Below, one piece after another: positions 15,129 through 15,928 of a DNA stretch of 64,000 nt. The stretch covers positions 64,001 to 128,000 of the IMG/VR virus record IMGVR_UViG_3300010396_000003. The stretch is one strand, 5' to 3'. Each line of letters begins with the position of its first letter. The first letter of the stretch is position 1. The notes beneath the pieces are model-generated. The model saw only the letters and a list, made by a program, of their open reading frames with translations. It was not told the DNA's origin and searched no databases. The position numbers and the translations under genes were made by a program. Source of the DNA: a virus.

Positions 15129-15228
15129 TGGAGCGTCTGGCGAGATTTGAACTCGCATCAACCAGTTAGAACTGGCTGCTCTGTCGGTTTTAGAGACCGA
15201 TGCTTTCACCCGGTTAAGCTACAGACGC
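15129..15228 (-). tRNA. Amber suppressor tRNA(CTA), class II with long variable arm
   Basis: The cloverleaf has acceptor GCGTCTG/CAGACGC, D-arm GCTT...AAGC, anticodon arm TCGGT-CTCTAAA-ACCGA (anticodon CTA, reading UAG), a 27-base variable region with its own hairpin (CCAGT...ACTGG), T-arm GCGAG-TTCAAAT-CTCGC, discriminator U and an encoded CCA. The 100-base length is long even for a class II tRNA. Class II form suggests Ser, Leu or Tyr origin, whereas G1-C72, C2-G71, G3-C70 and U73 are the acceptor features of tRNA-Gly. The amino acid charged is therefore uncertain. Confidence 0.88.
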
Positions 15229-15237
15229 CTTGTTCTC

Positions 15238-15260
15238 TTAGGAACAATTTTTGTTCCTAA
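15238..15260. terminator. 10-bp hairpin between suppressor tRNA and mini-tRNA units
   Basis: TTAGGAACAA and TTGTTCCTAA form a perfect 10-bp stem with a three-base loop. The minus-strand transcript has only a short mixed sequence after it, so it may be a processing or weak termination signal between the two RNA groups. Confidence 0.4.
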
Positions 15261-15266
15261 AGAAAT

Positions 15267-15311
15267 TGGAGCGGGGTGTGGCTTTGAACCACGTCTTTCG
15301 ACGCACCCCGC
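15267..15311 (-). ncRNA. Mini-tRNA-like unit 1 (45 nt, no anticodon arm)
   Basis: The minus strand gives acceptor GCGGGGT paired with ACCCCGC, a hairpin CGTC-GAAA-GACG with a GNRA loop, a T-arm GTGG-TTCAAAG-CCAC with a consensus T-loop, discriminator U and encoded CCA. There is no anticodon arm. The acceptor end (G1-C72, C2-G71, G3-C70, U73) matches bacterial tRNA-Gly. It starts one base from unit 2. It could be a minihelix substrate for an aminoacyl-tRNA synthetase or CCA enzyme, or a decayed tRNA. Confidence 0.6.
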
Positions 15312-15312
15312 G

Positions 15313-15358
15313 TGGCAGGGGCTTCGGATTTGATCCACGCGCTTTCACGCGAGCCCCT
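15313..15358 (-). ncRNA. Mini-tRNA-like unit 2 (46 nt, no anticodon arm)
   Basis: The minus strand gives a perfect 7-bp acceptor AGGGGCT/AGCCCCT, a hairpin with loop GAAA (GCGT-GAAA-GCGC, one G-U), a T-arm-like segment around ATCAAAT, discriminator G and encoded CCA. The acceptor (A1-U72, G2-C71, G3-C70, G73) is that of bacterial tRNA-Trp. It is separated from units 1 and 3 by single bases. Confidence 0.55.
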
Positions 15359-15359
15359 A

Positions 15360-15412
15360 TGGTGCCGGCGTCCCATTCAAGAGAGCGCGGCGCTAGCTTC
15401 CGCACCGCCGGC
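15360..15412 (-). ncRNA. Mini-tRNA-like unit 3 (53 nt, no anticodon arm)
   Basis: The minus strand gives a perfect 7-bp acceptor GCCGGCG/CGCCGGC, discriminator A and encoded CCA. The 35-base interior has a GCGG...CCGC hairpin and a T-arm-like TCTC-TTGAAT-GGGA element whose loop is one base short of the tRNA consensus. It begins two bases from the next full tRNA. It is the least regular of the three units. Confidence 0.5.
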
Positions 15413-15928
15413 ATTGGTGTGCGCGGTAGGAGTCGAACCTACCTCGATCAATTTAGAGTTGACCTGTCCAGCCGCTGGACCACGCGCACATAAACTGGCA
15501 CGCCCGGTCGGATTCTCACCGACAACTTCTCTGTTTAGATCAGAGCACTCTCGTAGTTGAGTTACGGGCGTATCTTTGTAAACTCGATAATTTGAGAGCA
15601 CCGATCGCGCAACTCCGCTAATCGGCGCCGTACAAATGGCTGTAAATCTTTCTGCTTCGGGAAAGTCTGGTTCAAACCAGCAATAATGTTGAATCTGAGA
15701 TACGGCGAGTTTGCCGGCAACACGTTTAAGTGCGGCCAGATCGGGCACACCAATCAGAACGTGGTTGTTCCAACACTCATTCTGTTGGACTGTATAAGGC
15801 TTATGCGTGAAGCGCATAGTCGCCTGTTCTACTGCATGATTGGATTGGATGATTTGATGCTGGATGGGAAGATCCATCCGAATGAAGGTATAAACGTAAG
15901 GTTCTTGAGAAATCTAGGTAAATGTCAT
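15377..15928 (-). CDS. Peptidyl-tRNA hydrolase 2-like protein with in-frame TAG at codon 5
   Basis: The conserved part reads YVYTFIRMDLPIQHQIIQ-NHA, then WNNHVLIGVPDLAALK, FEPD and FTAICTAPISG, the pattern of the Pth2-like proteins I recall from phages; Pth2 cleaves peptidyl-tRNA. The first in-frame ATG without interruption is at 15877, but that removes the first beta-strand (YVYTFIR). Extending the frame upstream gives ATG ACA TTT ACC TAG at 15928-15914, so the full domain needs readthrough of a UAG. No Shine-Dalgarno precedes 15928, and a promoter places transcription start about there, so translation could be leaderless. Downstream, the conserved sequence ends near 15580 while the frame runs through two suppressor tRNAs to a TGA at 15377; the true C-terminus is unclear. 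Confidence 0.65.
15415..15489 (-). tRNA. Amber suppressor tRNA(CTA), class I
   Basis: The cloverleaf has acceptor GTGCGCG/CGCGCAC, D-arm GTCC-AGCGGCT-GGAC, anticodon arm GTCAA-CTCTAAA-TTGAT (anticodon CTA), T-arm GTAGG-TTCGACT-CCTAC, discriminator A and encoded CCA. It is 75 bases long. The D-arm resembles tRNA-Gln/Asp. The open frame of the peptidyl-tRNA-hydrolase-like gene runs through this tRNA. Confidence 0.93.
15496..15571 (-). tRNA. Amber suppressor tRNA(CTA), class I, unusual T-loop
   Basis: The cloverleaf has acceptor ACGCCCG/CGGGCGT, anticodon arm CTCTG-ATCTAAA-CAGAG (anticodon CTA), T-arm GTCGG-TGAGAAT-CCGAC, discriminator G and encoded CCA. The T-loop departs from the TTCRANT consensus, so tertiary folding may be altered. 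It lies at the 3' end of the conserved part of the peptidyl-tRNA-hydrolase-like gene. Confidence 0.85.

Follow-up and report, generated by a model that had tools for sequence, protein, structure and literature searches.

Start-proximal stop codons of a phage PTH2-like gene are probably opened by suppressor tRNAs encoded alongside it

The CTA tRNAs of the phage studied here are very probably dedicated amber suppressors that open a UAG lock close to the start of the adjacent PTH2-like gene, and in other phages also on a partner gene with an HD domain. The DNA analysed, called the window below, comprises 64,000 nucleotides, bases 64001-128000 of a 152,425-bp phage record (IMGVR_UViG_3300010396_000003) that holds 41 tRNAs covering all 20 amino acids. 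At the level of sequence, comparison supports the gate and its conservation, a coding region behind it, linkage to a cognate suppressor and the use of UAG as a true stop elsewhere. In a broader form that we consider reasonably likely, standard-code phages silence a module of PTH2-like protein and HD hydrolase behind a start-proximal stop that dedicated suppressors unlock, UAG/CUA and UGA/UCA switch together, and the operon of one clade also makes anticodon-less, two-armed mini-tRNAs that form a new RNA family. The features of the region are the following.

15935 to 15962, minus strand: promoter-like site whose end lies 6 nt upstream of the ATG; TTGACA-16-TACATT, the second hexamer preceded by TG
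15914 to 15928, minus strand: gate, ATG ACA TTT ACC TAG, next base A; the same layout occurs in 49 of 60 non-redundant relatives
15572 to 15913, minus strand: PTH2-like coding region after the gate, 114 codons, Pfam PTH2 E=0.026
15496 to 15571, minus strand: suppressor tRNA 3, anticodon CTA, loop ATCTAAA, G73, 48.7 bits
15415 to 15489, minus strand: suppressor tRNA 2, anticodon CTA, loop CTCTAAA, A73, 50.1 bits
15360 to 15412, minus strand: mini-tRNA m3, 53 nt, A73; the PTH2 frame closes at the TGA in its T loop (15377-15379); nine related phages have homologous units
15313 to 15358, minus strand: mini-tRNA m2, 46 nt, A1:U72, G73, GAAA-loop hairpin, z -2.5
15267 to 15311, minus strand: mini-tRNA m1, 45 nt, G1:C72, U73, GAAA-loop hairpin, z -4.0
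15129 to 15228, minus strand: suppressor tRNA 1, anticodon CTA, loop CTCTAAA, long variable arm, U73, Rfam 62.6 bits
14680 to 15105, minus strand: SSB gene, Pfam SSB 7.8e-40, ending DEDIPF-TAG, next base T

The first-pass annotation had proposed three tRNAs that read UAG, and these proved real: all have CTA anticodons and exceed the 29-bit gathering cut-off of the Rfam tRNA covariance model (RF00005), which finds all three; ARAGORN finds two and misses the third. Each encodes CCA. Their discriminators differ, as had been noted, and we regard them as amber suppressors of probably different identities. The idea that three in a row is unusual did not survive comparison, as 11 of the 49 gated clusters described below have two or three CTA tRNAs within 8 kb. 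Between phages the discriminators of CTA tRNAs vary as well (A 27, G 12, U 9, C 1), and the type of suppressor 1, with its long variable arm, recurs at loci L027, L031, L035 and L043. A DNA similarity search of the tRNA region against known phages returned generic tRNA and SSB matches only. A second, independent assembly (IMGVR_UViG_3300010373_000045) is 99.97% identical over the region, with zero differences across the suppressor stretch; at 17247-17251 the window differs from it by a one-base indel and a substitution, which may be a frameshift error in the window. Two further observations concern the minus strand of another stretch of the same record, L011. A 93-nt CCA-ended tRNA-like unit at 8738-8830 (record 48738-48830), reported by neither ARAGORN nor Rfam, has the odd loop CTTTATAAT and is perhaps a tRNA-Ile(TAT). 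The 682 nt between two tRNA-Arg genes at 10056-10737 (record bases 50056-50737) contain no convincing ORF, look structured and have no Rfam match; they are possibly a large phage non-coding RNA.

The gated gene lies directly upstream of suppressor 3, whose 5' end abuts the final PTH2-homologous codon. It begins ATG ACA TTT ACC TAG ATT TCT CAA GAA CCT TAC..., with the TAG at codon 5, and ATG, GTG and TTG are absent between this TAG and the first strand of the PTH2 fold. The frame then stays open across suppressor 3 and across suppressor 2. Against the PTH2 profile (PF01981, curated cut-off 23) the window's protein scores 15.1 bits, and ORF364 of phage XacN1, a relative discussed below, scores 25.3 bits, above the cut-off. 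An AlphaFold2 model with a pLDDT of 91 had PTH2 proteins as all of its top 13 Foldseek matches (E 7e-6, TM 0.75), so the product after the gate is, as modelled, of PTH2 fold. When the family profile was aligned to a solved PTH2, a Gln and a 2-residue gap stood in place of the catalytic lysine of the GK motif. The activity of a PTH2-like family lacking the usual catalytic lysine is uncertain, and this apparent loss allows a tRNA-binding rather than a hydrolytic role. The promoter-like site is the best of 4 in the region, such sites being no commoner there than in shuffled sequence; the nearest relatives have a comparable -10-like box ahead of the ATG, and the mRNA of the gene looks possibly leaderless in the window's clade. 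Single-protein searches with the PTH2, SSB and terminase proteins returned little beyond the second copy of the same phage.

Three other minus-strand genes of the window were noted in passing. An Acb2/Tad1 hairpin-domain protein (14194-14445, Pfam E 1.3e-11), likely anti-defence, is encoded close to the suppressor operon; at 9603-11201 a 2H phosphoesterase domain resembling Acb1 is joined to a histidine phosphatase domain; and 3756-5282 encodes a nicotinamide phosphoribosyltransferase (phrog_448, E 1e-159).

We traced the gate among viral relatives. A tblastn search placed the PTH2-like gene in 18 phage records, and the first five examined (Arash, CBB, ME3, XbC2 and LR756511) all read ATG-(1-3 codons including ATG spacing)-TAG ahead of the domain; phage BF reads ATG ACG CAC TAG. 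In many GenBank records the start of the gated gene is set too far downstream or, as in the SNUABM and BF phages, the gene is unannotated. An alignment-based profile search extended the set to 80 loci, at which the first upstream in-frame stop was TAG in 68, TGA in 10 and TAA in 2. A start codon lies at most 8 codons before the TAG in 65 of these 68 loci, and 59 of the 65 have no start between TAG and domain; nearly all of the TGA and TAA loci have an ordinary start after the stop. With a TAG gate defined as ATG, 0 to 11 codons, TAG and then an ORF without a start before the conserved domain, clustering at 90% identity gave 60 non-redundant clusters, 49 TAG-gated, 1 TGA-gated and 10 ungated. 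The huge phages L111-L113 were kept out of these gate counts because recoding is possible in L113 at least. In the commonest gate a single codon separates ATG from TAG; this spacer codon varies and the TAG is invariant. A Shine-Dalgarno (SD)-like 4-mer precedes 33 of the 49 gates. TAG accounts for 15% of terminal stops in the relatives' loci, far below its share at the gates (p about 1e-39, a figure that is overstated because clusters were treated as independent).

The family is almost confined to phages (2 matches in 84,980 prokaryote genomes, searched with a narrow pattern). A strict scan of the same loci for gated families found PTH2 to be the only large one, with 55 TAG and 0 TGA or TAA; it was followed by the HD gene and by a small family seen in L038/L041. 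The latter, at L041:9575 and in L038, has a strong SD and ATG-ACA-TAG (protein SVKEAAEAYQWVHQQ...), and is a possible additional gated target of that lineage. No second convincing gate was found within the genome of the window's phage. A few loci are less clear. RaK2 and Myrna are ungated or ambiguous: in Mycobacterium phage Myrna (L109, 1974-2531) the PTH2-like gp84 starts GTG-TAG-GTG, leaving its gate status ambiguous, and the tRNA at 2460-2531 is annotated as Ser and called CTA by ARAGORN. At L075:7964 an SD, ATG, nine codons and TAG are followed by the PTH2 domain in another frame, as by a gate frameshift or an assembly indel.

A gene with one in-frame stop, for which annotators called later starts or no gene, could be a decaying gene in which the TAG is a nonsense mutation. 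The same stop nevertheless recurs in 49 clusters with varying neighbour codons, the two assemblies agree, and dN is well below dS downstream of the gate in all 20 listed pairs of close relatives, indicating purifying selection. We consider decay extremely improbable, and the selection and the recurrence of the gate together led us to reject a pseudogene reading of the PTH2-like gene.

The sequence around the gate also bears on how the stop is passed. ATG-x-TAG could instead be a short leader ORF, a minigene or attenuator, with the PTH2 protein made by alternative initiation or termination-reinitiation on a non-AUG codon that is located at the UAG or beyond it and the suppressors serving something else. 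ATT, ATA or GTT often follows the gate TAG. Two-codon minigenes such as lambda bar provoke peptidyl-tRNA drop-off, which would suit a peptidyl-tRNA hydrolase. The codon after the TAG varies, however (ATT, GTT, AAC, GAA, GCG, CTG, AAG), so there is no conserved start, and reinitiation leaves unexplained both the TAG in 49 of 50 gates and the switch to TGA with TCA tRNAs. Base +4 of the gate TAG is a purine in 48 of 49 cases, compared with 66 of 113 terminal TAGs (58%, p=4e-8), a bias that favours readthrough over reinitiation; +4U, which is reported to lower readthrough (PMC5289835), is absent from gate TAGs. We therefore regard initiation at or after the stop as unlikely, and favour suppression of the gate.

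If suppressors open the gate, stop and anticodon should match. CTA was the commonest anticodon within 8 kb of gated genes, present in 36 of 49 clusters against 14 for the next, and 49 of 49 CTA tRNAs near gated genes lie on the strand of the gene. Once Rfam and whole-contig searches were added, a CTA tRNA was located on the same contig in 46 of the 49 gated clusters. The three exceptions are two short fragments and L080, an 84-kb fragment with a TAG gate and two TCA tRNAs in which CTA was not found. TGA gates pair with TCA tRNAs in three phages. L091 has the gate ATG GAA TCG TGA with a TCA tRNA about 200 nt upstream; it is the sister of the TAG/CTA locus L071 (support 99/86), and in both the suppressor tRNA lies just upstream of the gene. 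For Agrobacterium phage Atu_ph07 a UCA suppressor was reported with no specific target given (PMC6102473). The predictions for this phage and for XacN1 were recorded ahead of testing. The Atu_ph07 PTH2 gene reads ATG-ATT-GGC-GAA-CAC-TTT-TGA, with the next 22 codons free of starts; its domain is a distant relative within PTH2, so gating may have arisen more than once. The third case, the HD gene of L056, reads ATG TTG TGA on a contig with two TCA tRNAs and no CTA tRNA found on searching, and is the weakest of the three as GTG follows straight after its TGA.

Large phages commonly carry tRNA arrays, and CTA tRNAs also occur in 3 of the 10 ungated clusters. The suppressors might thus be incidental members of a big array, replacing for instance tRNAs cut by host nucleases, and near PTH2 only through clustering of tRNA-related genes. 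This is very unlikely, since near gated genes no other anticodon reaches half the frequency of CTA, whose tRNAs lie without exception on the strand of the gene, and since a change of the gate stop goes with a change of anticodon. Under the lock model TAG is expected with CTA, TGA with TCA and TAA with TTA. An ochre gate with a strong SD (ATG CAT TAA) was seen at a PTH2-like gene in the Neisseriaceae MAG contig RXKI01000052.1 (L156); a TTA tRNA was not found in the contig parts read. This case counts against the lock reading, as do the ten ungated clusters with their three CTA carriers, the L080 mismatch, the GTG at L056, the status of RaK2 and Myrna, and the missing catalytic lysine.

The first-pass annotation had held that UAG still serves as a stop, and we confirmed several of the TAG-ending genes that it listed; of the 71 ORFs in the whole record that are 200 aa or longer, 8 end in TAG. 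Coding density there is 90% with TAG kept as a stop, and the genome-wide in-frame TAG check that it had suggested showed that opening TAG lengthens the coding sequence no further than opening TGA or TAA does. Its proposal of partial or temporal recoding is better replaced by a targeted lock, the conserved UAG a few codons into the neighbouring PTH2-like gene. Suppressor tRNAs would also be present if UAG were recoded in the manner of code 15 phages, across the genome or in late genes, but the 90% density and the lack of gain on opening TAG speak against it, as do the terminal TAGs of the relatives' loci and the stop of the SSB gene, and its probability is close to nil. Recoding of the code 15 type across the genome was ruled out, there being no rise in coding density when TAG was opened. 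The SSB gene lies just downstream of suppressor 1. An SSB tail is functional only when C-terminal, so UAG has to terminate at the end of this gene and is a genuine stop right beside the suppressors. Codon-usage scoring produced no candidate readthrough extension past TAG-ending genes, a scan of low power given the weak codon signal (0.11 bits per codon). At 55691-56584 on the plus strand one ORF ends in TAG and another opens in the same frame at an ATG that follows after just 11 codons; the pair may be two ordinary genes or could yield a readthrough fusion.

An HD-domain gene follows PTH2 in about 30 loci. In XacN1 and CM1 the HD domain precedes PTH2 in a single fused gene whose gate is ATG-AAG-TAG; separate HD genes carry their own gate, TAG in L036, L050, L085, L088 and L104 and TGA in L056. 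By tblastn, no HD homologue was found in the window's phage. The authors of the XacN1 genome could not identify target genes of its two CUA suppressors (PMC5852040), and ORF364 is a candidate target.

Between suppressors 2 and 1 of the window lie m1-m3, tandem units 1-2 nt apart that have no anticodon arm. Each combines a fully paired 7-bp acceptor with a single hairpin and a T arm, and NCCA is encoded; none had a match in Rfam 15 up to E=1. In nine related phages such a unit adjoins the first suppressor, and in L051 and L063 one lies near CTA tRNAs. Among 14 different units every acceptor pair has 2-5 pair types, nearly all Watson-Crick, as counted by position from the ends (MAFFT misaligned the acceptors); as the scan selected for pairing, the support lies in pair variety and conserved place, not in pairing alone. 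Throughout the window's clade the PTH2 frame crosses the suppressor tRNA stop-free and closes within the first mini-tRNA, at a TGA or TAA of the T loop, whose position 56 carries T rather than C. Of 10 members, 8 have this T-loop stop in frame, an observation rather than a test, since related sequences are not independent. Were RNase P to release suppressor 3, the PTH2 mRNA left behind would lack a stop codon. The mini-tRNAs may act in processing, as decoys or as substrates for the gated enzyme.

Without a suppressor, ribosomes would halt after a peptide of 1-12 codons, four in the window's gene. Once the phage had transcribed a suppressor tRNA and this had matured and been charged, some of the ribosomes would read the UAG and produce the PTH2-like protein. 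We infer this readthrough from the comparisons, along with co-transcription, charging, timing and an action of the PTH2 and HD proteins on tRNA. With gene and suppressors on one strand behind one promoter-like site, the arrangement would form a coherent feed-forward loop, tight when off and delayed when on. As the gated residue precedes the fold, any amino acid should serve and suppressor identities should be interchangeable, which would explain the three different suppressors in the window. The PTH2 and HD proteins may protect tRNA, turn it over or feed back on the suppressor. We suggest tentatively, as a possibility somewhat short of probable, that phage tRNAs must be mature and charged before a tRNA-acting protein is made, and that this protein perhaps feeds back in turn on the suppressor.

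The pairing of gate and suppressor is present in dozens of distantly related phages, the cultured ones infecting Salmonella, Acinetobacter, Cronobacter, Xanthomonas, Stenotrophomonas and others. Many isolated suppressor tRNAs of standard-code phages, previously without a known target, thereby gain a likely target and job, and stop-codon suppression as a phage lock that reports the supply of the phage's own charged tRNA becomes testable. A literature search, with most subscription papers outside its reach, returned no account of a start-proximal stop-codon lock for which a phage supplies its own dedicated key. In code 15 crAss-like and Lak phages, and in theta-ribozyme phages (PMC10879173), a phage CTA tRNA likewise reads UAG in a standard-code host, and a temporal switch has been proposed. 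Those phages have UAG as a sense codon inside many genes, whereas here UAG keeps its role as a stop and readthrough would be limited to one start-proximal gate, for the most part in a single module. As with pyrrolysine at UAG and selenocysteine at UGA, a dedicated tRNA would serve particular in-frame stops while the codon still terminates other genes. Unlike those systems, the gate needs no special amino acid: tRNA identity and neighbouring residues vary, the gated position precedes the fold, and UGA can take the place of UAG as the stop. The phage family shares the fold and the conserved Q..HA motif of Pth2/Bit1 (PF01981), but its GK region is shortened, with Gln for the catalytic lysine, and it is gated by a stop codon and almost confined to phages. 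Synthetic biologists have built such a logic by hand in E. coli, where a gene with nonsense codons and an induced suppressor tRNA, amber or opal, form a tight coherent feed-forward loop (PMC7969014); the phage case is natural, uses a single stop near the start and has gene and tRNA adjacent.
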